From assembly GCA_024275095.1 (NCBI GenBank), contig JAJRZV010000085.1:1-23582 (forward strand): a stretch of DNA of 23,582 nucleotides, in the 5' to 3' direction. A program made the position numbers and the translations under genes. The stretch's first letter is position 1; each line of letters opens with the position of its first letter. Shown piece after piece: positions 5,841 through 22,888 of this stretch. Source of the stretch: a bacterium. GTDB taxonomy: Bacteria; JAJRZV01. The notes beneath the pieces were generated by a model. That model was not told where the DNA came from. It did not search any database and saw nothing but the letters and a program-made list of their open reading frames with translations.

Positions 5841-6766
5841 CAGTGACCTCCTTTTTCACCTGAGATAAGCCTGAGGTAGATCTCTTCCAGCGAGGGAAGG
5901 CTTGAGCGTACTTCGAGAATTCCGTACCCCTTCTCTACCAGACGCCTGATCAGTTCGGGCTGGGGTGCTGTATCAACACCCACGCTGACCACAAGTTCGC
6001 GACCTTCCGCCCTTACAGACTCCACACCTGGAACATCCTGGAAAAACGACTCGTCATCGAGTGGCCTATCGAGTAAAATCTGAACCTGCCGCCTGTCACT
6101 GAGGCGACGGGATAGTTGTTCATACGTGTCTGCTGCGATAAGCCGTCCTTCATTAATGATGAGTACGCGGTTACACGTCATGGTTACTTCAGGAAGAATG
6201 TGCGTGGAGAGAATTACCGTGTGTTCCTTGCCGAGTTCCCTGATAAGTTCACGTATTTCAACTACCTGTGCAGGGTCCAGCCCGATGGTGGGTTCGTCCA
6301 GGATAAGCACTTCAGGATCGTGTACAATGGCCTGGGCAATAGCCACACGCTGCTTGTACCCACGGGACAGGTTACCGATAAGGCGATCGTACACATCCAC
6401 CAAGCCGCACCGTTCCACCACCCGTGCGACAGATTCGCGACGCTGGGAAGAAGGAACGCCTTTAATTTCTGAAATGAAGTACAGGTAATCCCTGACGGTC
6501 ATGTCTAAATATATTGGAGGATTCTCCGGGAGGTACCCTACCAGCCGCTTCACTTCCAGTGGCTCTTTCTCCACATCATGGCCTCCTACGAAAGCTCTTC
6601 CTGCGGACGGCATGAGATAACCGGTGATAATCCGCATGGTGGTCGTCTTCCCTGCTCCATTGGGTCCCAAAAAACCCAGCACCTCTCCTTTCTGAATGGA
6701 GAAACTCACATCCTGGATGGCCGGCCTGTCGCCGTAATATTTGGTGAGCTCCTGAACCTCAATCAT
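5840..6766 (-). CDS. ABC transporter ATP-binding protein (GldA/CcmA-like)
   Basis: A 308-residue nucleotide-binding subunit. Visible motifs are Walker A GPNGAGKT (residues 34-41), the signature LSRGYKQRV (about 133-141), Walker B VLILDEPT (about 153-160), and the switch histidine in STH (189). The Q-loop position reads YLPENPP, with Glu where many ABC proteins have Gln, a pattern usual for this subfamily. An extra C-terminal domain (about 220-308) is also typical of ABC-2 drug/gliding-type ATPases. This is the first gene of the ABC-GldG-DUF4340-HtrA operon. An AGGAGGT ribosome-binding site precedes the ATG, and a promoter candidate lies about 40-65 nt upstream. Confidence 0.95.
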   Translation of the reverse strand: MIEVQELTKYYGDRPAIQDVSFSIQKGEVLGFLGPNGAGKTTTMRIITGYLMPSAGRAFVGGHDVEKEPLEVKRLVGYLPENPPIYLDMTVRDYLYFISEIKGVPSSQRRESVARVVERCGLVDVYDRLIGNLSRGYKQRVAIAQAIVHDPEVLILDEPTIGLDPAQVVEIRELIRELGKEHTVILSTHILPEVTMTCNRVLIINEGRLIAADTYEQLSRRLSDRRQVQILLDRPLDDESFFQDVPGVESVRAEGRELVVSVGVDTAPQPELIRRLVEKGYGILEVRSSLPSLEEIYLRLISGEKGGH

Positions 6767-6805
6767 GGGTTTTACCTCCTCTCAGTTTTCACATAAACTG
6801 CACAA

Positions 6806-6833
6806 ATTCTCTCATACAACATGTTGTTATCAA
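6806..6833 (-). promoter_or_regulatory. Promoter candidate for the ABC/HtrA operon
   Basis: Reading the minus strand, TTGATA (6833-6828) is followed after 16 nt by GAGAAT (6811-6806). This gives 5 of 6 and 4 of 6 matches to the housekeeping consensus. It lies between the clp terminator and the ABC ATPase start, which is where an operon promoter is expected. The -10 element is weak, so activation or an alternative sigma factor is possible. Confidence 0.5.
6816..6827. promoter_or_regulatory. Perfect 12-bp palindrome between -35 and -10 (possible operator)
   Basis: The sequence ACAACATGTTGT is its own reverse complement and lies entirely within the spacer of the promoter candidate for the ABC/HtrA operon. 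A dimeric repressor bound here would block RNA polymerase. No matching regulator is encoded beside it, and a single short palindrome could also occur by chance. Confidence 0.4.
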
Positions 6834-6848
6834 AATCCCGGCAATGAG

Positions 6849-6888
6849 AAAATGTCCCCGCCCTATCTAAGGTTACATCACGGGGACA
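6849..6888 (-). terminator. Rho-independent terminator overlapping the 3' end of clp
   Basis: On the minus strand TGTCCCCG (6888-6881) pairs perfectly with CGGGGACA (6860-6853) across a 20-nt loop and is followed by TTTTCTC. The 5' arm is inside the last codons of the clp gene, and the clp stop codon (6875-6873) sits in the loop. It separates the dnaK-dnaJ-htpX-clp operon from the ABC operon. The loop is long and the T-run short, so termination may be incomplete. Confidence 0.6.
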
Positions 6889-9149
6889 GGAAGAGCGGCG
6901 GCAAGGACCTCTATCGTCTCGTCCTTGGCCCGGACGACAAATTCATCCGCAACATCCCACATTTCACTGAGAGGAGCACGTATGCGCCGGGCGACCACCC
7001 GCTTGATGTAACGGGCTCCATATTGAAGGCTGTAACCTTCCTTCACAACAAGATCTATCACTGCGTCCTCTACGTGCACGCGCTTACCCTCTTGAGCCGC
7101 CGTCTCAATAACTTTACGAATTTCTGCTCGAGCGATTTCCTTTACTTCCTCTTCAGTGAGTGGGGAAAAAACGACAATTTCGTCAATTCTATTGAGGAAT
7201 TCCGGCGGGAAGAACCGTTCCGCCACCTTCAAAATGGCATTTTGCAGGTCCTGACAGGGCACCTGTGTGTTACGAAATCCCATGGGATTGGTAGCACGGG
7301 CATATTCCTGAGACCCCACGTTGGAGGTAAGAATAATCACTGCGTCTGAGAAATACACTCTTCTGCCCCGGCCATCGGTAATCCATCCTTCATCGAACAC
7401 CTGCAGAAAAAGATTTCTGACAAAAGAGTTCGCCTTCTCAAATTCGTCAAGCAATACAACACAAAATGGATTTTCCCTCACCCGGGTTGTCAGAACACCC
7501 CCCAGTTCCGACCCCACAATACCCCTGGGCATTCCAATGAGCTTATCCACGCCCAGAGATGATTCACTGTACTCTGACATATCCACGCGTATAAGGCGAT
7601 TTTCGTCTCCAAAAAGTGCCTCTGCCAGTGCCTTGGCCAGTTCTGTTTTTCCCACACCTGTCGGACCCAGAAAGAGCAACACGCCCGCCGGCCTGGTACG
7701 TTGCTCTTTAAGAGGTCCCATATTCAGTCGCACTGTGCGGACCACCGCCTCGACAGCGTGCTTCTGGCCTACAATACGCCTTCTGATCTTCTGTTCCAAA
7801 TCTGCGAAGCGTTCATTGACACGCTGCTTAACCAGCTCTAAAGGCACGTGCGTATCCTGAGACACCACTTCGTCCACGTCTGAAGGCACCACGATCCGCG
7901 GCTCACCTCGAAGTTCCGCTTTTACACAGGCTGTGTCCAGCCAGGCGATGGCCTTGGCCGGAAGGCGTGTGTTCATAGCATACCGTGTGGACAAATAAAG
8001 CAAACGTTTTATGGCTTCATCACAGATCGATACAGAATATGTCCTTTCAAATCGAGACCTCAAGCCCTCCAGTATCTGCCTTGTCTCTTCAATGCTGGGC
8101 TCCTCCACCTTTACCACCCGGAACCTGCGGGCCAGCGCCTCATCTTCTGCAATGTGCATTCGATATTCCTGAGCGGTGGTGGCTCCGATGATTTGAATTT
8201 CTCCTCGAGCCAGGGATGCTTTGAGGATGTTGGCCGCATCTGTGGGCACACCGAGAGCCGAACCAGCGCCGATAATGGTATGCGCTTCATCAATGAAAAG
8301 AATGTATCTGGGATTTTCCTTAACTTCGCGAATGAGTTTTTCCATCCTCTCTTCGAACATGCCCCGGAACATGGTGCCTGCCACGATGGCGTTCATGTGA
8401 AGCTGCACAATCTGCTTATCCCTGAGGCGTGGTGGCACATCTTCAGGAGAAAATTCAATAAGTCTCGCCAGCCCTTCCACAATGGCTGTTTTACCCACTC
8501 CAGGTTCTCCTATGAGCATCACCGAATTTGCACGCTCCCGGTGACACAGAACCTCCATAATCTGACGCAGTTCTGCATCTCTTTTGATAAGGGGAGGCAA
8601 TTTATCCAGGCGTGCCAGCATGTTCAAATTGGTTCCAAACTGCTTGAGAAAGGGGGGGAGTTCATAGTGACGCAGGATCTCCTCTTCCAGTTCCTTCTGA
8701 CGACGCCTCTGAGCGTATATTTCCTCTATAACCTCGGTGGGCGTAATGCCTCGACTGGTCACCTGCTTCATGAGCACATTGGGTCCTACCTGGAAGAAGG
8801 CAACAAAGAAATCAACCGCATCTGCCAGTTCCCTTCCGGAAAAGCGGGCGTGTTCAAGAGCTGCCTGCAGAAACCGAACCGTCTCCTGCGGAATTTTAAT
8901 GGACCGTCCTGTGTACTGTCTTGCCCGCCGGAGAAATTCGAGAACCGCGCTTTTTATAACAAAGGGGGCAAGCCCGAGAGCCCGCATTGTTTCTTCAAAC
9001 AGCGGTCCCTCCACCTCCATGAACGCCACAAAGATGTGTTCAAGCCCCAGGTAATAGTGATTGCGCCGTTTGGATTCTTCGACTGCAATGGTGAGAATCC
9101 GTTGCGCGTTTTCATCCAGTTTTTCCCTGAGACTGGTAAAGTCCAGCAT
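6873..9149 (-). CDS. Clp-type AAA+ unfoldase (ClpA/ClpC-like, no M-domain)
   Basis: A 758-residue Hsp100 protein expected to unfold substrates, probably for ClpP. An N-terminal Clp repeat region (about residues 1-145) is followed by D1, with Walker A GEPGVGKT (214-221), Walker B LFIDEAH (284-290) and sensor GATT. D2 has Walker A GPTGVGKT (495-502), Walker B LLDEF (566-570), sensor TSN and the Arg-finger segment FLNRIDE. The long ClpB middle coiled coil is missing, and the length equals that of ClpA-type proteins. An insertion after the D2 sensor carries MGF (623-625), at the place of the ClpP-docking IGL/VGF tripeptide. Oddly, the D2 pore loop reads GIVG instead of the usual GYVG. The D1 pore loop reads MFRG, keeping an aromatic residue. 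GGAGGT lies 12 nt before the ATG, a long spacing, and no alternative in-frame start is nearer. The gene begins 18 nt after htpX. No clpP is in the window. Confidence 0.9.
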   Translation of the reverse strand: MLDFTSLREKLDENAQRILTIAVEESKRRNHYYLGLEHIFVAFMEVEGPLFEETMRALGLAPFVIKSAVLEFLRRARQYTGRSIKIPQETVRFLQAALEHARFSGRELADAVDFFVAFFQVGPNVLMKQVTSRGITPTEVIEEIYAQRRRQKELEEEILRHYELPPFLKQFGTNLNMLARLDKLPPLIKRDAELRQIMEVLCHRERANSVMLIGEPGVGKTAIVEGLARLIEFSPEDVPPRLRDKQIVQLHMNAIVAGTMFRGMFEERMEKLIREVKENPRYILFIDEAHTIIGAGSALGVPTDAANILKASLARGEIQIIGATTAQEYRMHIAEDEALARRFRVVKVEEPSIEETRQILEGLRSRFERTYSVSICDEAIKRLLYLSTRYAMNTRLPAKAIAWLDTACVKAELRGEPRIVVPSDVDEVVSQDTHVPLELVKQRVNERFADLEQKIRRRIVGQKHAVEAVVRTVRLNMGPLKEQRTRPAGVLLFLGPTGVGKTELAKALAEALFGDENRLIRVDMSEYSESSLGVDKLIGMPRGIVGSELGGVLTTRVRENPFCVVLLDEFEKANSFVRNLFLQVFDEGWITDGRGRRVYFSDAVIILTSNVGSQEYARATNPMGFRNTQVPCQDLQNAILKVAERFFPPEFLNRIDEIVVFSPLTEEEVKEIARAEIRKVIETAAQEGKRVHVEDAVIDLVVKEGYSLQYGARYIKRVVARRIRAPLSEMWDVADEFVVRAKDETIEVLAAALPVPVM

Positions 9150-9167
9150 GTTTTGGGGCTCACCTCC

Positions 9168-10025
9168 TTATAAAATCGTGGCGTAATTTTCACCCACCAG
9201 CCTCTTAATTCGTTCCTCAATGGGAGGATGAGTGCTGAACAGGGAGGACAAGGAAGACCCACCTCTGAGGGGGTTGACAATGAACATGTGGGATGTGGCA
9301 GGATTCACCTCGGCAGGGAGCCTGTGCGAGTAAGCATCCAGTTTTTTCAAGGCCCTGGCAAGACCAAATGGCGAGCCCGCAAGTTTCGCCCCCGTGGCAT
9401 CCGCCATGTACTCGCGCGACCGGGAAATGGCCATCTGGATAAGAATCGCGGCGATAGGTGCCACAATCGCCATGATCAGCAACACGATGGGATTGTTGCC
9501 TTCATTATCCCTGCCACCAAGAGCTCCGAATATCGCCAGGTATTGCAGCCATCTTGCAATCATCATCACCGCTCCTGCAATAGTCGCCGCAACCGCGCTC
9601 ACAAGAGTATCTCTATTCAAAACATGTGCCATTTCATGGGCCAGCACACCCTTGAGCTCCTCTTCGTCCACAAGGCGAAGCATTCCCTCTGTCACAGCCA
9701 CTGCTGCGTGCCCGGGACTTCGACCAGTGGCAAAGGCATTGGGCTGTTGCATGGGGACGATGTAAACTCTCGGCTTGGGAATTCCTGCCTGAGCCGCCAG
9801 CTCTTCCACAATCCGGTGAAGATAGGGAGCTTCATCGGGCGCGACCTCCCGCGCCCGGTACATGGCAAGCACAATCTTGTCAGAGAACCACCAGGCTCCG
9901 AAATTCATTACTGCGGCAAATATAAAGGCCAGAGTCATCCCGTAAGTACCACCGATAGCATTGCCGATCAGGAGTAACAGCACGGTCAGAAGGCTCAACA
10001 AAACAACTGTTTTTATCCGATTCAT
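9168..10025 (-). CDS. htpX: HtpX-type membrane zinc metalloprotease
   Basis: A 285-residue M48 family protease that degrades damaged inner-membrane proteins with its active site on the cytoplasmic side. It has two N-terminal membrane helices (about residues 7-24 and 29-46), the zinc/catalytic motif HEMAH (His130, Glu131, His134), two further hydrophobic segments (about 143-170 and 180-200), and the third zinc ligand Glu205 in SREYMAD. The C-terminal [14 protein letters not shown] is typical of the family. I chose the ATG at 10025 because AGGAGGG lies at a suitable distance; an in-frame GTG two codons earlier would overlap that site. The gene sits between dnaJ (62 nt upstream) and clp (18 nt downstream), so heat-stress co-expression is likely. 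Confidence 0.95.
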
Positions 10026-10087
10026 GGACACCCTCCTCTACACAAAATGTCAGGTTTTTACATCAATACGCATTTTTTGCACAAAAA

Positions 10088-11179
10088 TTACAGGTGTTCC
10101 CTGAGTTTTTCGAGGAGTTTTTTGGCTTCGGAGGAAAGACGTTTGGGTACAGTAATCTTAACCACTGCATATAGATCCCCGCGTCCGCCATCGGAAGAGG
10201 GGAAACCCTTGCCTTTAATTCGCAGTTTTGCTCCCGAATCCGTGCCTGGCGGAACCTTCACGCTGTAGATGCGTCCGTCCGGGGTTTCAACATCCACGTT
10301 TCCTCCCAGTGCAGCAGTAAGCATATCCACCGGCACATCCACGTAGAGGTCCCTACCCTCGCGGCGAAAACGTGAATCACCAAGCACATGAACCCGCAGG
10401 AACAAATCGCCTGGAGGAGCTCCGCCTACTCCGTCGTTACCCTTGCCTGCAATGCGGAGCCGTGTGCCCTCCTTCACGCCCGGCGGGATGGTAACTTCAA
10501 TACGTTCACGTGATTGGACCCGTCCAGAGGCTCCGCAGGCGCTGCATGGGACACCGGGTTGTTCGCCTGTGCCTCCACATTCCGGACAGGTGGCTGAGAC
10601 AAAAAGGAAACCCCGTGACTCTCGGATTTCGCCGGTACCATGGCACCGGGAGCAGGTACCACCACCTGAACCCGCACGCCGACCTGAACCTCCGCAATGA
10701 GAACAGCGAACCAGGCGAGATATTTCCACATCCCGGCGCGCTCCTGTGTACACATCAACAAGGGGCACTGTAATCTCCATCTCAATATCTTCACCCCTTG
10801 CAGGCGACCGGTAGGAAGCGCGTCTTCTTCCGCGTCCGGTAAATATTCCTTCAAAAAGGTCCTGAAACCCGCGACCGCCGCCAAAGAAGTCAAAACCCTC
10901 GAAATCTTTAAAAAAGTCAAAATTAAAGTTAAAACCACCCCTTCCGCCTCCGGCAAAGGCAGCCTCGCCAAGCATATCGTATTGTTTGCGTTTTTCCGGG
11001 TCGCTCAGTACCTGATAGGCTTCGTTGATTTCTTTGAACTTTTCCTCGGCTTCCTTGTCACCTTTGTTCAGGTCGGGGTGATACTTCTTGGCTAACCGAC
11101 GGTACGCCTCCTTGATTTCTTCCTGGGTGGCGTTCCGGCTCACTCCCAGGATCTTGTAATAATCTTTGTAAGGCGCCAT
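10088..11179 (-). CDS. dnaJ: DnaJ (Hsp40) co-chaperone
   Basis: A 363-residue type I J-protein that stimulates DnaK ATPase activity and delivers substrates. The J domain occupies residues 6-70 with HPD at 34-36. A Gly/Phe-rich region follows (about 75-117). The zinc domain has four repeats at 159-166 (CSHCGGSG), 176-183 (CSRCHGTG), 198-205 (CPECGGTG) and 212-219 (CSACGASG). All eight cysteines are present, but the last repeat has Ala in place of the first conserved Gly. Two C-terminal substrate-binding domains follow. The length is near the usual 370-380. The gene starts 57 nt after dnaK. An AGGAGGT lies 14 nt from the ATG, and a closer GGGGAG at 7 nt probably serves as the ribosome-binding site. 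Confidence 0.97.
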
Positions 11180-11236
11180 TTCTCTCTCCCCGACCTCCTG
11201 GTGTATTTCTATTATTATCCCACATTTTTACAGAAC

Positions 11237-13177
11237 TCAGTTGCCTCCTTTATCATCTTTTTCCCGATATTCAGCATCAATTACATCTCCCCGGTCTCCT
11301 GAAGATGCTTCTGATGCACTTTCAGTACCGGAAGAGGCTTCACCCGCCTGGGCACCACCCGGCGCACCCGGGGAAGAGGCCTGCTGACGATAAAGAATTT
11401 CCGCAACCTTGTGGGACGCCTGTTCTATGCGTTCTATGGCCCGGCGCAGCTCATTGATATCTTCACTGTCTATCACCTTTTTCGCATCGCTGATGGCATT
11501 CTCTACCGCCACCTTTTCTTCGGCCGGGATTTTATCCCCGTGTTCGCGCAAAATCTTCTCTGTATTGTATATAAGAGTGTCCAGACGATTACGTGTTTCC
11601 ACCCGTTCCTTTTTTCTGCGGTCTTCTTCGGCATGGGCTTCTGCTTCTTTTACCATCCGCTCGATTTCTTCCTCAGTAAGACCGCTGGAGCCGGTAATGG
11701 TAATGGCCTGCTGTTTACCTGTGGCAAGGTCCTTTGCAGACACGTTGAGAATGCCATTGGCATCAATATCAAAGGTCACCTCGATCTGTGGCACACCCCG
11801 TGGAGCCGGCGGAATGCCCTCCAGACGAAAACGTCCGAGGGAGCGATTGTCCCTTGCCATGGGTCTTTCACCCTGGAGCACGTGGATTTCCACCGTGGTC
11901 TGGTTATCCTCAGCCGTGGTAAAGATTTCCGTTTTGCGTACAGGAATGGTGGTGTTCCGCTCTATGAGCTTTGTGAAAACCCCACCGAGAGTCTCCACAC
12001 CCAGGGAAAGGGGCACCACATCCAGCAACAGGATGTCTTTCATTTCGCCGGCGAGAACCGCTGCCTGAACAGCAGCACCGACGGCAACCACCTCATCAGG
12101 ATTCACACCGCGGTGAGGTTCGCGACCGAAGAAATCTTTTACCATCTCCTGAACCTTGGGGATGCGGGTGGAACCCCCTACGAGTACAACTTCATCAATA
12201 TCGGAAGGTTTCAAGCCTGCATCCTTGAGAGCCTGCTCGCAGGGTCGAATTGTCTTCTCCAGCAAATCTGTCACCAGTGATTCAAACTTGGAACGTGTGA
12301 GTTTCTTGTACAGGTGCTTGGGTCCGGATGCATCTGCTGTAATAAACGGGAGGTTGATTTCCGTCTCCTGCAGCGTGGAAAGTTCAATCTTCGCCTTTTC
12401 TGCCGCATCCTTTAACCGCTGCATGGCCATGGGATCCTTTGTCAGGTCTATTCCCGTCTCGTTTTTAAACTCTTCCACAAGCCAGTTGATAATCCGCTGG
12501 TCCAGGTCATCACCACCCAGGTGTGTATCCCCGTTGGTAGCCTTAACCTCGACAATATTGTCTCCTACTTCCAGAATGGAAATATCAAATGTGCCTCCTC
12601 CAAAGTCATACACAGCAATTTTGGCGTTCTTCTTTTTATCCAGACCGTACGCAAGAGCTGCGGCAGTGGGCTCATTGATGATTCGTTTCACATCGAGCCC
12701 GGCAATGCGTCCCGCGTCCTTGGTTGCCTGACGCTGTGCATCGTTGAAATATGCAGGTACGGTAATAACCGCACCTGTCACCGGTTCGCCCAGGTACGCC
12801 TCTGCATCCTTCTTAAGCTTCATGAGCACGCGAGCGGAGATCTCCGGGGGCGAGTACACCTTGCCCATCACCTCAACACGAGCATCATCGTGTGGTCCAC
12901 GCACGACTTTATACGGCACCCGCTTGATCTCTTCTGAGACTTCCTCGTAGCGTCTGCCCATGAAACGCTTTATGGAAAAGACTGTATTTTCAGGATTGGT
13001 TATCGCCTGTCTCTTGGCAATCTGCCCCACAATCACCTCTCCTTCTTTCGTAAACCCCACAACAGAAGGAGTGAGGTTGGACCCTTCTGCATTGGGTATC
13101 ACCTTCGGCTGGCCACCTTCCATGATAGCCATTACGGAATTGGTCGTGCCCAGGTCAATGCCTATGATCTTGCCCAT
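11237..13177 (-). CDS. dnaK: DnaK (Hsp70) chaperone
   Basis: A 646-residue cytoplasmic Hsp70. The ATPase domain opens with [14 protein letters not shown] and contains the second phosphate motif around [11 protein letters not shown] and the adenosine motif [12 protein letters not shown]. The linker [13 protein letters not shown] leads into the substrate-binding domain and helical lid. The C-terminus is a Gly/Ala/Ser-rich tail ending in the DnaK-type [10 protein letters not shown] motif. I place the start at the ATG at 13177, preceded at 5-6 nt by AAGGAGG. An in-frame GTG five codons upstream would lie inside that site. A housekeeping-type promoter lies about 40 nt upstream. Neither grpE nor hrcA, frequent dnaK neighbours, is present; htpX and clp follow instead. 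Confidence 0.98.
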
Positions 13178-13213
13178 GACAACCTCCTTCACCGTCAGAT
13201 TTTTTGCACTTTA

Positions 13214-13242
13214 AATTTAGGCTTCCTCTCCAGCCCCGTCAA
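13214..13242 (-). promoter_or_regulatory. Promoter candidate for the dnaK operon
   Basis: On the minus strand TTGACG (13242-13237) is followed after 17 nt by TAAATT (13219-13214). The spacing is ideal, and it lies between the hsp20 terminator and dnaK. No CIRCE element and no sigma-32-type CTTGAA/CCCCAT pair is seen here. The same TAAATT element, also behind a TTGAC box, occurs upstream of hsp20. Confidence 0.6.
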
Positions 13243-13254
13243 ACCAATAATCTA

Positions 13255-13288
13255 TAAAATAAAAAAGGGGGGGATAAACACCCCCCTC
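13255..13288 (-). terminator. Rho-independent terminator after hsp20
   Basis: On the minus strand a run of six G (13286-13281) pairs with seven C (13273-13267) across a 7-nt loop, followed by TTTTTTATTTTAT. This is a classic strong intrinsic terminator. It separates hsp20 from dnaK although both read the same way, so the two are separate transcription units. Confidence 0.85.
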
Positions 13289-13312
13289 TACACTACCGGA
13301 CCTGCAGGCAGG

Positions 13313-13753
13313 TTATTCGATTTTTACTTCCCTGGGCTTTGCCTCTTCTTTTTTGGGCAGTACAACCTCCAGCACCCCGTCTTTATAGGCAGCTTTTATC
13401 CTGTCACGATCCACATTGGATGGCAGTGAGAAGGACCGCTGGAAGCTTCCGTAGGCCCGTTCAATCCGATGATAGTTTTCCTCCTTCACTTCCTTCTCCA
13501 CTTTCTTCTCGCCCTTCAGGGTAATCACACCGTCCTGGACCTCGATTTTGATATCTTCCTTACTCACACCGGGTATTTCTGCCTTGAGTACAATCTCGTT
13601 ATCCGTTTCATATATGTCAACTGCTGGCACGAAGCCTCCCGCAAGGTCCAGGTCGGTGCTCCTGAAGCGGCGGAAGGACTCTTCAAAGAGCTTGTTCATT
13701 CTGTCCTGCAGATCCAGCAGGTCTCTGAAAGGATCCCACCTCATGATGGTCAT
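13313..13753 (-). CDS. Small heat-shock protein, Hsp20/alpha-crystallin family
   Basis: A 146-residue ATP-independent holdase that keeps unfolding proteins soluble for DnaK/Clp. The N-terminal WDPFRDLLDLQDRMNKLFEE (residues 6-25) is typical of bacterial Hsp20. The alpha-crystallin domain spans about 42-135 and ends with GVLEVVLPK (126-134). The terminal VKIE supplies an I-x-I/V-like tail for oligomer contacts. A GGAGGT site lies 8 nt before the ATG. The gene is monocistronic, with its own promoter and terminator. Its position directly upstream of the dnaK operon fits a heat-shock cluster. Confidence 0.96.
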   Translation of the reverse strand: MTIMRWDPFRDLLDLQDRMNKLFEESFRRFRSTDLDLAGGFVPAVDIYETDNEIVLKAEIPGVSKEDIKIEVQDGVITLKGEKKVEKEVKEENYHRIERAYGSFQRSFSLPSNVDRDRIKAAYKDGVLEVVLPKKEEAKPREVKIE

Positions 13754-13838: not shown

Positions 13839-13947
13839 CCTGGCCTGATTAACCGGTCAGTAAAAAAAAGTCTGATATGCGTTGAGGAATGTTCCCCTTA
13901 TTGATTTATATGAAAAAATACAACAACCAGAACCTCTGGAGGCCAAC

Positions 13948-16900
13948 ATGCGAACGGGCATAGATGTGGGTTCTTATTATCTCAAAATTGCCTGCCTCGA
14001 TGAAAACGGTCAGCTCCTGCACACCTTATTTAAGCCACACAGCGGCAAGCCGGGAGAACTCATCACCAGCAGCACGATTCAAAAATTGGTGCATCCGGGT
14101 GCAGGAGTGACAGGGGCGCTTGGCCATCTGGTACTCACTGAAAAATTCGTACCGGTTGATGAAGTACAGAGCCTCATCACCGGGACATGGCATCTTGCAG
14201 GCCCCTTTGAAAACCTCATCTATCTGGGCGCGAGTTCCATATCCCTGATCAGGGTCAACTATCGCGGGGAACTGCTCGACCTGCGCACCAATTCCATGTG
14301 TGCGGCGGGTACCGGTTCATTTCTCGACCAGCAGGCACAACGCATGGGCGTAAACTTTGAAGAGACAGGACGTTTTGCAAGCACGGACAATCCGCCTTCC
14401 ATTGCTGCACGCTGTTCTGTGTTTGCCAAATCGGACCTGATTCACCGCCAGCAGGAAGGTTACTCTGTCCCCGAGCTATGGTGCGGCCTCTGCCGGGGTC
14501 TCTCGCTAACCATTGCAGGCACGCTTCTGCGCGGTGAACGCCTGCGCGGCCGCACAGTGGTGGTTGGAGGCGTTGCTCTGAACAGGGAGGTCGTCAAATA
14601 CCTGAAAGAAAAAATCCCCGAACTCATCGTGCCGGAGCACCCGCACGTGGCTGCAGCTACAGGTGCGGCACTTCTGGCCGAAAATCCGGATGCGAGAAGC
14701 ACCGCAACTCGACCGGCGGTGTACTTCCATCAAACCGGTGGCAGAGAAAAGCATCAGAGGCCGCCTCTGGTGTTACATCTATCACGCATCCCTGAAGATA
14801 CGGTGTTTCGCTCTTACGTGGATACCGAAGGCAACGAGGTGCGCATAATACGACCCCTCCAAAAAAGTGAACCCGTGGCTCTGGGAATGGATGTGGGGTC
14901 CACATCCACCAAGCTCGCCCTTCTCACTCCTGAGGGAGAAATCATTGTGGATATCTACCGTCGCACGGCAGGCGATCCCATCGGAGCCATGAAGAAGCTC
15001 CTGAAGGCGGTGGAGACTATTCAAGAAGAAGAAAATACCAGTTTTTGCGTGCTCGCCTGTGGAACGACCGGGTCTGGCAGAAAGCTTGTTGGTGCCATTA
15101 TGGGCGCTGACAGGGTGGTCAATGAAATCACCGCCCATGCCCGCGGAGCACGCATGCTTTTTGGCGATGACATCGAAACCATTTTCGAAATCGGCGGCCA
15201 GGACTCCAAGTACATTCACATGAAACAGGGTCGTGTGGATAACGTGAACATGAACTACGTGTGTGCAGCAGGGACAGGATCTTTCGTGGAGGAACAGGCG
15301 GCCAAGCTGGGAATACGCGTACAGGAGATTGGAGACCTTGTCATGGGCGTTTCCCCACCGCACACTTCCGAACGGTGTACGGTGTTCATGGAGCAGGACG
15401 TAGAAAAGCTGCTGCGCGAAGGGGCATCCCGCGAAGAAGTGATCGCGGCAGTGCTCTATTCGGTCTGTGTTAACTACCTCACAAAAGTCGTGGGCAACCG
15501 CCCGATCACGGGCAAAAGAATCCTTTTCCAGGGTGCCACCGCGCGAAACAAAGGTCTTGTGGCCGCATTTGAAAACCTGTTGAACCGCGAAATTCTCACT
15601 TCACCTTTCTGTCATGTAACAGGAGCTATCGGTGCGGCTCTTCTGGCGCTGGAAGAGACGAAAAGGGAAAACACTGAAACCTCCTTTCGCGGCTGGAGTA
15701 TCCACCGCAAACACATAGAGGTAAACTACTCTCACTGCGACCTGTGCGCCAACAATTGCAAAATCACCTTTGCCCGCATTGAAGGAGTAAAAGAAGTTCC
15801 TTCCTGGGGTTACATGTGCGGCCGCGACCCTGAAGACTCCGGTCGCAAACACAACCGGCACTACGAACCTTTTGAACTGCGCACCTCTCTTTTCCTGCGT
15901 GCCGGCGTACAGAAAATCCGCAAGCGAAGAAAAGAGAAAATCGTTATACCCCGCGCTTTAAGCACCTATGCCTTCCTGCCCCTCTGGCGTGCATTTTTCA
16001 GCCATCTTGGTTTTCCCCTGACACTCACCCGTCCCACTGACCGGCACATTGCAGAAAAGGGAGTTGATGCTTCTTCTGCAGACTTTTGCTACCCGGTAAA
16101 AGTTTTCATCGGGCATGCACTGGAGGCAGCGGAAAAAGGAGACTACGTATTTATCCCTCATGTCATCGCCGGCGAAAAACCCAGATACACTGTCAATTCT
16201 GCCTTTTGCCCTTACGTCCAGGCTGGTCCCTCCATCGTGCGCGCTTCAGAAAGTGTAGCGGAGGCCCTGAAAGATAAGCTCCTTGCTCCGGTCATCGATT
16301 TTGCACGGCCGGACTGGCTCAATGTTGCAGACCTTGCAAAGGCCCTGGAACCCCTGGGTATCAACCAGTTCCAGGTGGCACGGGCCTGGAAAAAAGGGCT
16401 GGAAGTCCTTCAGGCATATCGTGAACAGTGTCTGATGGAAGGTCGCCGCATACTGAAAGAGGTTAACGAAAAAGGTGAAAAAGCCGTTGTGGTGGTGGGG
16501 CGTTATTACAACATGTACGACAGCGGCATCAATCTGGACCTCCCGCGCAAGCTCTCGGAACTGGGCTTCACGGTGATTCCCTACGAGTACCTGCCCTTCG
16601 ACGAAAAAGACCTGGGCGAGTTTTTCCAGGGGATGTTCTGGTACTACGGCCAGCGCATCATCAATGCAGCAAAACTCGTAAAAAAACATGACAACCTCTT
16701 CCTGCTGTACCTCACCAATTTTTCCTGCGGACCGGACTCTTTTTTGCTCACATACGTGGAAGAAATCCTTGGTCGCAAACCATACCTTATTTTAGAACTC
16801 GACGAACACGGGGCTGATGCCGGTTACGGAACACGCCTTGAGGCATTTGCCGATGTGGTAAAAGAGTGGGAAAAGGAAAAGGAAGAAAAAAATTACATAT

Positions 16901-18120
16901 ACGTGAAACCCCGCAGTGATGACTTTCGTTCCCGGCTCATACTCATTCCACCCATGCACCCCTCAGGTGCCGCCATGTTTGCTGCCGCCTTTCGCAAGCA
17001 CGGCTACAGAGCGGAAGTCCTGCCACCGGTAACCATCGACCAGTTCGAAAAGGGCCGTTCACTCACCAGAGGCTCGGAATGCCTGCCAACTCAAGTCACA
17101 ACGGGCAACATCGTGACCTACATTGAAAAATGTGGTCTGGAGCCCCATGAAATCGCGGTATTCATGCCCACCAGTGACGGCCCATGCCGTTTCGGTCAGT
17201 ACTCTGTGCTCCAGCGCATTATCCTCAACAAGCTGGGTTACGAAGATGTACTGATTCTTTCACCCTCGGGACAGAACACCTATCTTGGACTTGAAGGTGC
17301 GCTTCGAAAGGACCTCTGGCGGGGCATTCTCATCGGCGACATCCTTTTCAAGGCTTACTGTCACACGGCACCCTGTGAAGTTGAAAAAGGCAGAGCGCGC
17401 CTGCTTTTTGAAACACTCACGCAGGAAGCATCCGACGCGTTTGCCAGGGGAGAAGAATTCACCGACATCATCCGCACGGTTGTGCGGCGATTTGAAAAGC
17501 TGCCACAACAGCAGAAAAACGTTCCTCTGGTGGGGATTGTGGGCGAGATATTCGTGCGCTGCAACCCCTACTCCTGTGACTATGTGGTTGACTGGATTAT
17601 CGAAGCAGGAGCTGAGCCGTGGCTGGCTCCTGTCAGCGAGTGGATTCTCTACACCACCTATATTTATAAATACAAGGCGCGCAAGTACATGAACCTGAAG
17701 GATATCTTTGCCTCGCATCTGAGGAACAACTTCCTCCATCAGGTGGAACATCGAGCATACCAGGCAGCGGGTGAATTCCTGGCCGGGAGACACGAACCTC
17801 CAATGGAACAGATCGTTGAAGCAGGCAAACGCTACTTCCCGGTGGACTTCACCGGGGAAGCGATCATCACCGTGGGAAGAGCCGTCCTGTTTATAGAACA
17901 GGGAGCATCCTTGGTTGTCAATGCCTCACCCTTCACCTGTATGCCGGGTACAACCACCAGCGCAGTGTTTCGAAAAATCAGCACCGAAACAGGTGTGCCT
18001 GTGGTAAACATGTTTTATGATGGTTCTCTGGGTGTTAACGAAAAAGTAGCTGTGTTTCTCAGAAACCTGAAAAGAACCCTTGAGGAAAAACAATACCAGA
18101 AAAGCTTTCTCAGTGCCTGA
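13948..18120 (+). CDS. Giant tandem acyl-CoA dehydratase activase-like protein (BadF/BadG/BcrA/BcrD ATPase + DUF2229 + dehydratase-like region)
   Basis: A 1390-residue cytoplasmic protein. Residues 1-245 and 311-570 are two copies of the ASKHA-fold activase domain that, in HgdC-like proteins, uses ATP to push an electron from a [4Fe-4S] cluster into a dehydratase or reductase. The second copy is canonical: GMDVGSTSTK (313-322), CGTTGSGRK (371-379), EIGGQDSK (414-421), and cluster cysteines Cys439 (CAAGTGSF) and Cys477 (ERCTVF). The first copy keeps Cys118 (CAAGTGSF) and Cys156 (ARCSVF) but has DVGSYYLK, VTGALGH and YLGASSIS at the nucleotide-binding motifs. A Cys cluster follows (597, 600, 604, 624), then DUF2229 (about 655-870) and a region resembling 2-hydroxyacyl-CoA dehydratase components (about 1000-1380; SECLPTQVTTGN, SDGPCRFGQY, VRCNPYSCDYV). 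The ATG at 13948 has GGAGG 5-6 nt upstream; a TTG 22 codons earlier lacks one. No dehydratase subunits are nearby, and the substrate is unknown. Confidence 0.9.
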   Translation: MRTGIDVGSYYLKIACLDENGQLLHTLFKPHSGKPGELITSSTIQKLVHPGAGVTGALGHLVLTEKFVPVDEVQSLITGTWHLAGPFENLIYLGASSISLIRVNYRGELLDLRTNSMCAAGTGSFLDQQAQRMGVNFEETGRFASTDNPPSIAARCSVFAKSDLIHRQQEGYSVPELWCGLCRGLSLTIAGTLLRGERLRGRTVVVGGVALNREVVKYLKEKIPELIVPEHPHVAAATGAALLAENPDARSTATRPAVYFHQTGGREKHQRPPLVLHLSRIPEDTVFRSYVDTEGNEVRIIRPLQKSEPVALGMDVGSTSTKLALLTPEGEIIVDIYRRTAGDPIGAMKKLLKAVETIQEEENTSFCVLACGTTGSGRKLVGAIMGADRVVNEITAHARGARMLFGDDIETIFEIGGQDSKYIHMKQGRVDNVNMNYVCAAGTGSFVEEQAAKLGIRVQEIGDLVMGVSPPHTSERCTVFMEQDVEKLLREGASREEVIAAVLYSVCVNYLTKVVGNRPITGKRILFQGATARNKGLVAAFENLLNREILTSPFCHVTGAIGAALLALEETKRENTETSFRGWSIHRKHIEVNYSHCDLCANNCKITFARIEGVKEVPSWGYMCGRDPEDSGRKHNRHYEPFELRTSLFLRAGVQKIRKRRKEKIVIPRALSTYAFLPLWRAFFSHLGFPLTLTRPTDRHIAEKGVDASSADFCYPVKVFIGHALEAAEKGDYVFIPHVIAGEKPRYTVNSAFCPYVQAGPSIVRASESVAEALKDKLLAPVIDFARPDWLNVADLAKALEPLGINQFQVARAWKKGLEVLQAYREQCLMEGRRILKEVNEKGEKAVVVVGRYYNMYDSGINLDLPRKLSELGFTVIPYEYLPFDEKDLGEFFQGMFWYYGQRIINAAKLVKKHDNLFLLYLTNFSCGPDSFLLTYVEEILGRKPYLILELDEHGADAGYGTRLEAFADVVKEWEKEKEEKNYIYVKPRSDDFRSRLILIPPMHPSGAAMFAAAFRKHGYRAEVLPPVTIDQFEKGRSLTRGSECLPTQVTTGNIVTYIEKCGLEPHEIAVFMPTSDGPCRFGQYSVLQRIILNKLGYEDVLILSPSGQNTYLGLEGALRKDLWRGILIGDILFKAYCHTAPCEVEKGRARLLFETLTQEASDAFARGEEFTDIIRTVVRRFEKLPQQQKNVPLVGIVGEIFVRCNPYSCDYVVDWIIEAGAEPWLAPVSEWILYTTYIYKYKARKYMNLKDIFASHLRNNFLHQVEHRAYQAAGEFLAGRHEPPMEQIVEAGKRYFPVDFTGEAIITVGRAVLFIEQGASLVVNASPFTCMPGTTTSAVFRKISTETGVPVVNMFYDGSLGVNEKVAVFLRNLKRTLEEKQYQKSFLSA

Positions 18121-18129
18121 TAAAATCAA

Positions 18130-18201
18130 AGGCGGCGCCGGGATTCGAACCCGGGTATTGCGGTTTTGCAGACCGCTGCCTTACCACTTGGCTACGCCGC
18201 C
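18130..18201 (-). tRNA. tRNA-Cys (anticodon GCA)
   Basis: A 72-nt cloverleaf on the minus strand. It has acceptor arms GGCGGCG/CGCCGCC, D stem GCC/GGC, anticodon stem GCGGT/ACCGC with loop CTGCAAA (anticodon GCA), a five-base variable region, and T stem CCGGG/CCCGG with loop TTCGAAT. The discriminator is T (U73), the identity base expected for tRNA-Cys. CCA is not encoded. The gene converges with the activase gene, whose stop lies 9 nt from the tRNA 3' end. Confidence 0.97.
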
Positions 18202-18213
18202 TTTTATTTTTCT

Positions 18214-18405: not shown

Positions 18406-19740
18406 ATGTACGACAACAAAAACAAAACATTCTTGGTTGCAAGATTCATCTTTACAATTGTCACGGGAGTGTGTGCGGGGATTGGATGTTCACACCAGAA
18501 AATGGTTGACGTGGTTGTTGTGGGAGGTGGATTGGCCGGGCTTGCCGCAACGTATGAAATCCAGGCTCCGGGAGTAAAAGTCCTTCTTCTGGAAAAGGAA
18601 AAGCGACTGGGAGGACGCATCCAGACCCGGAATCACAACGGTGAACCCTATGAGAAAGGCGCGCTTTTTGCGTATTCCAGCATAATGGTTCCACCAGAAT
18701 GTGGAAAACCATCCCCCCGGATATTCAACCGAAAACCCGTGGGATTCTCTTTAAACGGGACAGTGTATCTGGGCCGCTCCGTCCGTCTGGCCATGGAGAA
18801 ATACAACTGGAGCCCGCGGGAACGTGAAATCCTTGAGCATGTGTTTAAAAGCCACGAGGTAGGCACCGCCTTTGCCTTTCCGCATCTGATTCAAGTATTC
18901 GCGGCCTTTTTCAATGCCATTCATCCCGGGGAGCTTAAGAAGTACCTGAAAGTGCGCTGGCAGGATTCACTTATCCGCTGGCCTGTCAGTGAAAGAAAGA
19001 ACGGGAATTCTGAACTCGTCGAGTTTTATACCAAGTGCATACAAGCAGGCGTGCTTCTTAACGCGAAAGTGTTGCGGGTGGAGGAGACGGGCGGTCACCG
19101 CGTTAAGGTCACGTATACGTACAAAGGAAAGCGGCGCCAGGTGGTGTCCCGGTATGTTGTTGTTGCTGTACCCGCCCCCATTGCGAACGAAATCGTTATG
19201 AACAAAAAACCAGTGGTGGCGGAATTCTTGCAGTCGGTAAGGTACGTTCCAGGATTCGTGGTTGTCCTTTTTGTTCCTCCTGGCAAGGTTATTGACTTCA
19301 GTTACGTGGTCTTTGCTGATGGAGAAGCAAGTTCCGTGTTTGCAATGCCATGCGTAAGAAAAAACTGTACAAAGCTGTATGTGTACTATGCCCGGGACAG
19401 GGCCGTAAAAATGAGCACGCTGCCTGTAAAAAAAGCTGTAAGTCGTACTGTGCGTGAATTGAAGCGTGCCGGTGTGGGCTCTCTCTCCATCGGGGACGTA
19501 CTGTTTGCAGACACCGGTTTCTGGCAATACCTTGCACCGGTAATAGACGCAGCGTTCGAGCGGATTGACGCTCGTGGCTATATCTTCGCTTCGGAACACG
19601 TCATTCTCGCCGGCGAGTACGCGTGGGGGCAGCCCGTAACAGCATCAGCGGGTATAATGCCTTACGGCATGTACGCTGCTTATCGAAGCGGAGTGGCCGC
19701 GGGAGAGACTGTAGCCACTCTTCTGGGAGAGAAAAGATGA
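18406..19740 (+). CDS. FAD-dependent amine-oxidase/desaturase-like oxidoreductase with lipoprotein-like N-terminus
   Basis: A 444-residue flavoprotein of the amine oxidase/phytoene desaturase superfamily. The Rossmann motif VVVGGGLAGLAATYE spans about residues 37-51, an acidic residue follows at the end of the second strand (LLLEKE, about 61-66), and the second FAD motif is RLGGRIQT (67-74). The C-terminus has the expected FAD-contact region VILAGEYAW...SAGIMPYGMYAAYRSG (about 400-430). The middle has low similarity to anything I recognise, so the substrate is unknown. Unusually, residues 1-28 look like a signal sequence: Lys-containing start, hydrophobic stretch 9-27, then G-I-G-C28-S, a weak lipobox. 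The ATG at 18406 follows GGAGTGAGGG; the alternative ATG at 18502, right before the Rossmann fold, lacks a nearby ribosome-binding site. The stop overlaps the next start by 4 nt. Confidence 0.85.
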   Translation: MYDNKNKTFLVARFIFTIVTGVCAGIGCSHQKMVDVVVVGGGLAGLAATYEIQAPGVKVLLLEKEKRLGGRIQTRNHNGEPYEKGALFAYSSIMVPPECGKPSPRIFNRKPVGFSLNGTVYLGRSVRLAMEKYNWSPREREILEHVFKSHEVGTAFAFPHLIQVFAAFFNAIHPGELKKYLKVRWQDSLIRWPVSERKNGNSELVEFYTKCIQAGVLLNAKVLRVEETGGHRVKVTYTYKGKRRQVVSRYVVVAVPAPIANEIVMNKKPVVAEFLQSVRYVPGFVVVLFVPPGKVIDFSYVVFADGEASSVFAMPCVRKNCTKLYVYYARDRAVKMSTLPVKKAVSRTVRELKRAGVGSLSIGDVLFADTGFWQYLAPVIDAAFERIDARGYIFASEHVILAGEYAWGQPVTASAGIMPYGMYAAYRSGVAAGETVATLLGEKR

Positions 19741-20717
19741 AAAAGCAGGGTAACGGAACACGGAGTCTCCTGTTTATTCTGGGGTTGGCGGTTTTGATTG
19801 CAGGTGCTGCCGTATTTGCCTTTAAAAAGAGAGCTCATCTCTCCATTGGTGACCCGCTTACCTTGTGTACTGTTTATCGCATTCACGACAACCGGCCTGT
19901 GTTTGTAAAAACCACACTCGATGGGAATGTGGCTTTTTACGGGCTCATCCTCCAGTCAACGGGAAACGAAAAAATTGCTGAATACCTGCTTTCTAAAAGT
20001 TTGGGAGGGTTATGGGAGTATCACGACGGCTACGGTGTCACCTCTGCAGACAGCGCATTTGTTATTGAAGGACTTCTTTCAGCCGGTTACGAAGGTATGG
20101 CGAGGAGAAGCCTGGAGATTATCGTAAATAAATATTACTCCCGCGAGAAGGGAACGTTCCTGGCACTGAGGCCCCATGAAGGCGGGGCCCCGTACTGGAG
20201 CTTGCCGGCGGTGGAAACAGCAGCGCACATTGCGTATCTTCTTTACATCGCTTTTGGAGGAAGGCGGTACCGGGAGCAAATACTTTCCACGGCCAAGTTC
20301 GTGGCAAAAAATCAGCAGTCAGACGGCGGTTGGCAGAGCACGTGGTTCCCTTCGCGTACTCTCCCGGTTTTTTACGCGGTACGCTTGCTCAGGCTGTTCC
20401 GGGAGCAGTACGTTGATAATCTTGCCCGGGCTGAGAATTACCTGCTCCGAATGCAGAACAAAGACGGGAGCTGGAACGAAAGATTTATCGAGACAGCCGC
20501 AGCCCTGCGCGCGTTGAATGTCCTTGGAGCCTCTCACATCAACGCATATGAAAAGGGAGTGCAATGGCTCCACGATCATCTTAACGATGCAAAGGGTAAA
20601 GGGGAACCCGTGCTTTTCTACGGGATAAAAAGAAAAAAGCAGGTGTTTTTCGTTCATTGTTCTGATACCGGCCTGGTAACAAAAGCGTGGATAACGCTGG
20701 CACTGAAGGGTAAATGA
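19737..20717 (+). CDS. Membrane-anchored alpha/alpha-toroid protein with squalene-cyclase/prenyltransferase-type repeats
   Basis: A 326-residue protein with one N-terminal transmembrane helix (about residues 9-28) and a probably extracytoplasmic helical domain. QW-like repeats are visible: NQQSDGGW (192-199) and MQNKDGSW (239-246), each followed by a helix rich in Ala/Leu. Related but weaker repeats occur at about 89-118 (GGLWEYHDGYGVTSADSAFV) and 149-172. These are features of the squalene-hopene cyclase, prenyltransferase and pectate-lyase-10-like toroid superfamily. The protein is far shorter than a real squalene cyclase (about 630 residues), and no DXDD catalytic motif is seen, so cyclase activity is not supported. 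ATGA overlap with the oxidoreductase stop indicates coupled translation, with GGGAG upstream. An open frame extends 38 codons further 5', but that part is inside the oxidoreductase gene. Confidence 0.75.
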   Translation: MKKQGNGTRSLLFILGLAVLIAGAAVFAFKKRAHLSIGDPLTLCTVYRIHDNRPVFVKTTLDGNVAFYGLILQSTGNEKIAEYLLSKSLGGLWEYHDGYGVTSADSAFVIEGLLSAGYEGMARRSLEIIVNKYYSREKGTFLALRPHEGGAPYWSLPAVETAAHIAYLLYIAFGGRRYREQILSTAKFVAKNQQSDGGWQSTWFPSRTLPVFYAVRLLRLFREQYVDNLARAENYLLRMQNKDGSWNERFIETAAALRALNVLGASHINAYEKGVQWLHDHLNDAKGKGEPVLFYGIKRKKQVFFVHCSDTGLVTKAWITLALKGK

Positions 20718-21006: not shown

Positions 21007-21702
21007 ATGAACCTCACAGGACTATATAAACTCACTTACGGGGTGTATGTGGTCACGTCCGTGAAGAAAGGAAAGCTCAACGGACAGATCGCCAATACCG
21101 TATTTCAGATCACCTCCGAGCCTCCGCAGGTAGCGGTGAGTATCAACAAGGGTAACCTTACACACGAATTCATAAGGGAAAGCGGGGTTTTCGCCGTGTC
21201 CATTCTTTCCAGAAACGCGCCGCTCAAGCTCATAGGAAACTTTGGCTTCAAGTCGGGACGGGACGTGGACAAATTCGAGAATGTGAAATACACACTTGGC
21301 ACCACGGGCGCTCCCCTGTTAATGGAACATACAATCGCACACCTGGAAGTCGAGGTGATGGAAGTTCTCGATGCAGGCACTCACACGCTGTTTACAGGCA
21401 GGGTGGTCAACACGGAAGTGTTGAGCAACGATGAACCCATGACCTACGCCTATTATCATGAAATCAAAAAAGGAAAGGCTCCAAAGACGGCTCCCACTTA
21501 CAGAAAAGAAGAGAAAACCGACATCCCTAAAAAGGAGACAGGCATGAAAAAGTATGAATGTAAGGTCTGCGGATATGTGTATGACCCCGAGATCGGGGAT
21601 CCGGACTCGGGGATAGCCCAGGGAACACCTTTTGAGGAGCTCCCGGCAGACTGGGTTTGCCCTGTGTGCGGAGCATCGAAGGACGAATTCGAGGAGGTAT
21701 GA
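21007..21702 (+). CDS. hrb: High-molecular-weight rubredoxin: flavin reductase domain fused to rubredoxin (Hrb type)
   Basis: A 231-residue electron carrier. Residues 1-157 form a flavin-reductase-like FMN-binding domain ([12 protein letters not shown]..., with [16 protein letters not shown] about 25-40). A short charged linker (158-178) leads to a complete rubredoxin domain (180-231) with iron ligands Cys185, Cys188, Cys218 and Cys221 (CKVCGY and CPVCGA). In Moorella such a protein passes electrons from NADH to the flavodiiron protein FprA, which then reduces NO or O2; the FprA-like gene follows 1 nt later here. The ATG has AAGGAG at 6 nt. A second strong ribosome-binding site precedes Met180 inside the gene, so a free rubredoxin may also be made. 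The domain order and length match known Hrb proteins. Confidence 0.93.
21532..21546 (+). promoter_or_regulatory. Internal ribosome-binding site and ATG at the start of the rubredoxin domain
   Basis: AAGGAG (21532-21537) is followed after 6 nt by an in-frame ATG (21544-21546) encoding Met180. Residues from there, [11 protein letters not shown], look like the natural N-terminus of a stand-alone rubredoxin. Initiation here would give a complete 52-residue rubredoxin. The site is as good as the gene's own start, but whether ribosomes use it is not shown by sequence. Confidence 0.5.
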
Positions 21703-21703
21703 A

Positions 21704-22888
21704 ATGCCTGTACGGGAAATAAAGCCGGGAATTTACCATGTGGGCGCCATAGATTGGGACAGAAGGCTTTTTGACGAGCTCATTCCACTGCCCGAAGGCA
21801 CAACCTACAACGCCTATCTTGTAAAGGGAAAGGAAAAGACAGCCCTCGTGGATACTGTCGATCCTGCAAAAGAACAGGAATTGCTGGATAACCTGAAAGA
21901 AGCAGGGGTGGAAAAGCTGGATTACATCATCGCCAATCACGCGGAACAGGACCACTCCGGTGCCATCGGCAGGGTGCTTGAAAGGTATCCTGATGCAAGG
22001 GTGGTTACCAACGAAAAGTGCAAGAACTTCCTCAAGGACCTGCTACTCATTCCCGACGAAAAGTTTATCGTGGTAAAGGACGGGGAAGATCTCTCCCTCG
22101 GGGAAAAAACCTTCTCCTTTGTATTTACCCCGTGGGTACACTGGCCGGAGACAATGGTCACGTACCTGAAGGAGGACAAAATTCTGTTCAGCTGTGACTT
22201 CTTTGGATCACACTTCGCAACGTCATCCCTTTTTGCTGATGAAAGCGGGAGGCTTTATGAAAGTGCCAAGAGATATTACGCGGAAATCATGATGCCGTTC
22301 AGGACATCTATCAGAAAACACCTGGAGAGGCTTTCAAATTTCGATATAGACATCATCGCACCCAGTCACGGCCCCGTGTATAAAAATCCATCTTTTACCA
22401 TTGACGCTTACAGGGAATGGAACAGCGACGATGTGAAAAACGAGGTTGTGATCGCCCATGTATCAATGCACGGCAGTACGGGAAAAATGGTTGATTACTT
22501 TATTGCGGCGTTGATGAAAAGAGGTGTACAGGTAAAACCCTTCAACCTTCCCGGAACGGACATCGGTGAGCTGGCGATAGCGCTGGTGGACGCGGCCACC
22601 CTCGTCATCGCCACTCCCATGGTTCTCAGCGGTGCACATCCTCAGGCGGTATACGCGGCTTTCCTTGCCAACGCGCTCCGGCCAAAGACCCGTTTCATCT
22701 CCATCATCGGCTCGTACGGCTGGGGTGGAAAGTTCGTGGAGCAACTGAAAGGGTTGCTCGGGAACCTTAGGGCTGAGGTTCTTGAACCCGTGATCGCCCG
22801 AGGTCACCCCAAGAAAGAAGATTTCCGGAAACTTGAGGCTCTCGTGGACACTATCGTGGAGAAACACAAAAACAGTGGTCTTTTATAA
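21704..22888 (+). CDS. fprA: Flavodiiron protein (A-type flavoprotein), O2/NO reductase
   Basis: A 394-residue cytoplasmic enzyme that reduces O2 to water and/or NO to N2O using electrons from rubredoxin. The N-terminal metallo-beta-lactamase-like domain (1-245) has all diiron ligands: His79, Glu81, Asp83, His84 (NHAEQDHSG), His146 (WVHWPET), Asp165 (SCDFFGSH) and His222 (SHGP). The C-terminal flavodoxin domain (about 247-394) begins with the FMN phosphate loop VSMHGSTGK (253-261) and has ATPMVLSGAHPQ and GSYGWGGK. The length is typical of class A flavodiiron proteins without extra domains. The ATG at 21704 has GAGGAGGT upstream. It is 1 nt after the hrb-type stop, so the two are co-translated and form an electron-transfer pair. 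Confidence 0.95.
   Translation: MPVREIKPGIYHVGAIDWDRRLFDELIPLPEGTTYNAYLVKGKEKTALVDTVDPAKEQELLDNLKEAGVEKLDYIIANHAEQDHSGAIGRVLERYPDARVVTNEKCKNFLKDLLLIPDEKFIVVKDGEDLSLGEKTFSFVFTPWVHWPETMVTYLKEDKILFSCDFFGSHFATSSLFADESGRLYESAKRYYAEIMMPFRTSIRKHLERLSNFDIDIIAPSHGPVYKNPSFTIDAYREWNSDDVKNEVVIAHVSMHGSTGKMVDYFIAALMKRGVQVKPFNLPGTDIGELAIALVDAATLVIATPMVLSGAHPQAVYAAFLANALRPKTRFISIIGSYGWGGKFVEQLKGLLGNLRAEVLEPVIARGHPKKEDFRKLEALVDTIVEKHKNSGLL

Follow-up and report, generated by a model that had tools for sequence, protein, structure and literature searches.

A flavoprotein paired with a squalene-hopene-cyclase-type toroid in two bacterial phyla

Introduction

What might a flavoprotein and a small cyclase-like toroid do together at a bacterial membrane? 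The question is raised by two overlapping genes on a bacterial contig of 23,582 nucleotides (JAJRZV010000085.1), the whole of which we call the window. A preliminary description of this DNA had read the products as an amine-oxidase-type FAD protein and a membrane-anchored toroid with QW-type repeats, both probably located at a membrane's outer face, and had suggested that they could act together on a lipid, an isoprenoid or a peptide. It knew of no described system with such a pairing, and the open-access literature that we searched, with partial coverage, likewise contains no published flavoprotein-toroid pair.

Results

The gene pair and its surroundings

The flavoprotein gene (18406..19740, forward strand) encodes 444 amino acids with an amine-oxidase/PPOX fold and a putative N-terminal signal/lipobox for export. 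The toroid gene (19737..20717, forward strand) encodes a membrane-anchored alpha/alpha toroid of the squalene-hopene cyclase type, 326 amino acids long from the ATG at 19737. Both ORFs lie where they had been described, and they are joined by an ATGA overlap (19737..19740, forward strand) that holds the flavoprotein stop and the toroid start. A tRNA-Cys gene lies upstream on the opposite strand (18129-18202), and a flavin reductase-rubredoxin gene (21007-21702) follows about 290 bp downstream. The GC content of the pair (0.50-0.51) is like that of its neighbours (0.50-0.53), and therefore nothing hints at a recent import.

The remainder of the window contains several recognisable genes. A CoA dehydratase activase-type protein of 1412 aa (BadF and DUF2229) is encoded at 13882-18120 (+), and a cluster of chaperones and proteases at 6873-13753 (-) comprises a Clp ATPase, an HtpX-like protease, DnaJ, DnaK and a small heat-shock protein. 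The genes at 21007-22888 (+), in which the flavin reductase-rubredoxin fusion is followed by a flavodiiron-type protein (ODP/lactamase), are possibly the oxygen-defence operon of an anaerobe.

Toroid and flavoprotein are kept together in two phyla

We searched for the toroid in 386 diverse genomes and then in 28 species of the phylum of genome G092. The genome of the window (G000) is the sole representative of its phylum among the genomes searched. Outside G000, the 386 diverse genomes yielded one strong relative of the toroid, in G092, and the 28 species held four full-length copies in addition to the G092 copy, which is decayed. The copy in G403 has an in-frame stop close to its end and was counted as near-intact. 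All five intact or near-intact toroids, that of the window included, adjoin or are fused with a flavoprotein of the same family, across two phyla. Conserved pairing in distant genomes, which the preliminary description had set as a test, was thus found in a second phylum, natural fusions included.

The architecture of the pair varies among these genomes. G396 (L055) has separate toroid and flavoprotein genes, both lipoprotein-like, with a 4-bp overlap (8445-8448) as in the window. G389 (L056/L062) encodes a flavoprotein-toroid fusion in one ORF of 778 aa with a lipobox. In the triple fusions of G409 and G403 (L057/L061 and L058/L060), a multi-TM domain precedes flavoprotein and toroid in one protein; G396 encodes a relative of this domain on its own, next to the pair. 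The contigs bearing the pair include MAGs from reindeer, from red deer and from goat duodenum, and two others. A model of the fusion protein gave an unusable domain interface (pTM 0.53, linker pLDDT about 30). Overall, it is well supported that flavoprotein and toroid form one functional unit, with a pairing far beyond chance.

At the thresholds used, profile searches of the 386 diverse genomes found neither family outside the phyla of G000 and G092; the pair system is therefore rare in this partial sampling. A scan of genome contigs, which may omit records of the window's own genome, returned no loci beyond those already found. No flavoprotein adjoins the short secreted toroids of G317, G184 and G038 (L030, L040 and L005) within the sequence read, so short toroids are not paired in this way as a rule.

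Several further features were observed at or near these loci. An in-frame TAA occupies a homologous toroid codon in two species (L060:4072-4074 and L063:5056-5058), after NIEQA/NIEKA, and conserved sequence runs on beyond it to the normal toroid end; this is either a shared nonsense allele or something else. The multi-TM family A4 (L055:6552-7448 (+) and the N-termini of the L057 and L058 fusions) has an HHHYW motif and no Pfam match; it is present in 24 of the 29 genomes searched and absent from G000. A comparison of A4 with the Lgt-like family detected no relationship. A conserved family without a Pfam match lies near some loci (L058:7081-8115 (+), L049:8964-10028 (+) and L094:12654-13673 (-)), with an N-terminal hydrophobic segment and the motifs PDLD[ST]T and SPAFSAAVYAEALTNIKSY. 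The idea that a second anchored family (A7) near some loci might be another toroid found no support in a profile comparison (probability 0.7%) and was dropped.

The toroid has a class II cyclase fold

The toroid belongs to PF13243 (SQHop_cyclase_C; E 1.7e-8, over the cut-off). By simple pattern it contains two QW-like repeats (QQSDGGW and QNKDGSW), and a single hydrophobic anchor spans residues 11-29 (19767..19823, forward strand; hydropathy peak 2.79), in keeping with its earlier reading as a singly anchored QW-repeat protein. Its AlphaFold model (pLDDT 84.6, pTM 0.83) consists largely of helices, with a beta-hairpin at each terminus. Among solved structures the model matches 8PAK/8PAJ at Z 29, drimenyl diphosphate synthase at Z 28, MstE at Z 27 and squalene-hopene cyclase at Z 26. 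Class II cyclases make up the best two dozen matches (Z 24-29 over 261-282 residues), and glycosidase-type toroids stay below Z 20. In fold the model corresponds to the catalytic domain of class II cyclases of the squalene-hopene type; C3d-type matches represent the same fold in non-enzymes.

The toroid had been described as about half the length of a terpene cyclase and as lacking a visible DXDD. Both observations hold, but by themselves they do not separate it from cyclases: at about half the length of squalene-hopene cyclase (631 aa), it is nevertheless the size of the solved monodomain cyclases MstE and 8PAK/8PAJ. No D.DD, the canonical class II motif, was found in the four toroid-family members checked. 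By pattern, TSADSA (102-107) corresponds to DXDDTA; only the last Asp, Asp105 (20049..20051, forward strand), is kept, and the other motif positions vary. Asp105 is invariant in the family alignment, and its equation with the last DXDD position was made by pattern, with the motif of squalene-hopene cyclase compared by eye; it is a candidate counterpart of the protonating Asp of MstE (Asp109). Seven of the 28 invariant residues in the alignment are aromatic, and an invariant Trp-Phe-Pro (203-205; 20343..20351, forward strand) forms a family signature. The only two cysteines, Cys44 (19866..19868, forward strand) and its putative partner Cys308 (20658..20660, forward strand), are conserved, and each lies in a modelled strand of a terminal hairpin; a disulfide linking the N- and C-terminal hairpins is therefore likely.

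MstE resembles the window toroid in being a single beta-type toroid of similar size (6SBB-6SBG match the model at Z about 27), but the two share 13-14% identity and the catalytic acid of the window toroid is only putative. We know of no pairing of MstE with a flavoprotein of this family, nor of its export. The closest solved structures in both profile and fold are 8PAK/8PAJ, short 'squalene-hopene cyclases' of Cystobacter and Archangium with about 20% identity to the toroid; we found no paper on them in the open-access literature searched, of which coverage was partial. Squalene-hopene and oxidosqualene cyclases share the toroid fold in one domain (Z 20-26), whereas the window toroid is half as long, lacks DXDD, is apparently extracytoplasmic and belongs to a genome without squalene synthase. 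To our knowledge, class II cyclases are cytosolic or cytosol-facing. The nearest architectural precedent for the pair is NctPC, a tryptophan-prenylating protein in which a prenyltransferase is fused to an MstE-like cyclase domain (PMC13290415). Like the pair, it joins a monodomain cyclase to another chain-modifying enzyme, but there the partner is a prenyltransferase and not a flavoprotein.

The flavoprotein lacks the amine-oxidase lysine

An amine-oxidase-type FAD protein had been proposed, and PF01593 (Amino_oxidase) matches the flavoprotein at 65.9 bits against a curated cut-off of 19.8 (E 5.6e-18). The Rossmann motif for FAD binding, GGGLAGL (18523..18543, forward strand), is kept across the family. 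PPOX, HpnE and CrtI models also match, all under their cut-offs. HpnE is among the NCBIfam matches of all five family members scanned, and the window protein scores 37.1 bits against the HpnE equivalog cut-off of 283 and 54 bits against the 97.85 required for protoporphyrinogen oxidase (TIGR00562). The flavoprotein domain of a fused homologue resembles MAO, PPOX, phytoene desaturase and others in fold (Z 29-32), and the best profile and fold matches are L-amino acid oxidases and MAO. In a tree of the flavoprotein family, the deep branches are not resolved, and the outgroup row OGL046 was taken from the wrong strand and is meaningless.

In the hmmsearch alignment to 5ts5, an L-amino acid oxidase, Val285 (19258..19260, forward strand) takes the place of the active-site lysine of amine oxidases. 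None of the 12 aligned family members has there the lysine, close to flavin N5, that marks amine-oxidising MAO and L-amino acid oxidases. A lysine of this kind was shown in a related flavoenzyme to be central to the step in which O2 reoxidises the flavin (PMC6222107). Because this residue, linked to oxygen reactivity in the wider family, is missing, the flavoprotein would more probably act as a dehydrogenase, a desaturase or an isomerase than as an amine oxidase that uses O2. It thus has its fold and FAD motif in common with the flavin amine oxidase superfamily (MAO, LAAO, PPOX, HpnE and CrtI), but differs in the lysine, in falling under the listed NCBIfam equivalog cut-offs and in its export signal.

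Both proteins are apparently extracytoplasmic

The flavoprotein of the window meets only a loose lipobox pattern, a weak AGIGC with Gly at -3 (18475..18489, forward strand; Cys28 at 18487-18489). Clearer lipoboxes occur in several homologues of the two proteins: SLTAC, SFVSC and, in the L055 toroid, FIISC, which stands in place of the anchor. The anchor of the window toroid has similar charges on both flanks, and its topology therefore leans on the homologues. Considering these lipoboxes, the lipoprotein fusion and the TM domain fused ahead of the flavoprotein, both proteins apparently sit at the outer face of a membrane, outside the cytoplasm. The outer-face location proposed from the N-termini alone thus gains support from lipoprotein signals in homologues of both.

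Relatives without a toroid lie among lipid-type genes

Seven loci in G092's phylum encode flavoproteins of the same family, mostly lipoproteins, without a toroid. Since these exist, the flavoprotein can presumably act alone. It overlaps an Lgt-like gene (PF01790, E 3e-22) by 4 bp in L094, L095, L096 and L098, adjoins one in L099 and L100, and is fused to one in L097. Most of these loci also lie near a PfaA-related type I polyketide synthase (PKS); in L095, L096, L097, L099 and L100 the two genes share a strand. The PKS linkage was observed solely in this phylum and mostly in one genus, and the window contains no PKS. Given the Lgt-like and PKS neighbours, the flavoprotein family seems tied to membrane lipid chemistry.

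The L097 fusion (5938-8415 (-)), of 825 aa, combines the flavoprotein with an Lgt-like and an Lcl_C domain. The Lgt-like proteins of L094 (5241-6104 (+)), L095, L096, L098 and L100 have a Tyr in FYGSLIG/FYGSMVG, at what we take to be the position of the histidine in the HGGLIG of Lgt, and are perhaps not genuine Lgt enzymes.

Squalene/phytoene synthase (PF00494) is absent from the pair-bearing genomes G000, G389, G396, G403 and G409 and from G092, which has the remnant. The toroid search found no full-length cyclase in pair-bearing genomes; G391 has both a full-length cyclase-like ORF and three copies of PF00494. The absence of PF00494 from pair-bearing genomes speaks against squalene, hopanoids, sterols and carotenoids as substrates, and a hopanoid or carotenoid reading of the pair was discarded on this ground. 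With the squalene and carotenoid pathways disfavoured, a lipid, an isoprenoid or a peptide, as first suggested, are all still candidate substrates.

Discussion

From the observed folds, export and anchor signals and pairing, we infer a substrate, an order of steps and a chemistry. Our tentative reading, held at somewhat less than even confidence, is that the pair forms an extracytoplasmic unit on the outer face of the membrane that acts on one long hydrophobic chain, with hydrogen transfer at carbon by the flavoprotein and holding or cyclisation by the toroid. Candidates include linear polyprenyl groups, quinone tails, and polyketide or fatty acyl chains. The central cavity of the toroid would hold this chain, as in class II terpene cyclases, and the toroid may also act on it by protonation or cyclisation. 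At C-C bonds in that molecule, the flavoprotein would take off or shift hydrogens. With the partners fused or anchored together, the substrate could be handed from one to the other without leaving the membrane. The confident cyclase-like model of the toroid, its invariant aromatics and the missing catalytic Lys speak for this reading, and the Lgt-like and PKS neighbours of relatives point to lipid chains. Against it, the catalytic acid of the toroid is putative and the sequence of the flavoprotein names no substrate.

Alternatively, the toroid may be a non-catalytic subunit that binds or presents a substrate to the flavoprotein as the sole enzyme. The missing DXDD, the variable first motif positions, the flavoprotein relatives without a toroid and the occurrence of the fold in non-enzymes would suit this explanation, but the nearest folds are class II cyclases, solved monodomain members among them, and the invariant Asp and several invariant aromatics are still present; we consider it possible but rather unlikely. 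A terpene-cyclase-type reaction at the outer face, in which exported flavoenzyme and anchored monodomain cyclase would dehydrogenate and cyclise a polyprenyl, quinone or polyketide chain bound to the membrane of bacteria that lack squalene/phytoene synthase, is to us doubtful, with perhaps a quarter of our confidence.

Other explanations change the substrate or deny a common function. If the flavoprotein oxidised C-N bonds in amines, amino acids or a peptide, and the toroid were its peptide- or wall-binding partner, this would account for the top matches to L-amino acid oxidases and MAO, yet the absence of the lysine from all 12 aligned members and the lipid-type neighbours of relatives make it improbable. 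The HpnE matches and the likeness of the toroid to squalene-hopene cyclase might instead suggest a relic or a variant form of the hopanoid pathway, with an HpnE-like flavoprotein and a shortened cyclase. PF00494 is missing from the five pair-bearing genomes and G092 (in contrast to G391), the HpnE score (37 against 283 bits) is far under the curated cut-off and the pair is apparently extracytoplasmic, so that this is very improbable. Least credible of all are chance neighbours without a common function: the flavoprotein family does occur without the toroid, but the five toroids out of five beside or fused to it, and the natural fusions in themselves, already contradict this.

If the reading of the pair as an outer-face unit acting on a hydrophobic chain is true, an exported member of the class II cyclases fused to a flavoenzyme would take terpenoid-type chemistry out to the external surface of the bacterial membrane, and a new class of membrane lipid could result. 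The natural fusions offer a ready single-gene construct for tests of this chemistry.
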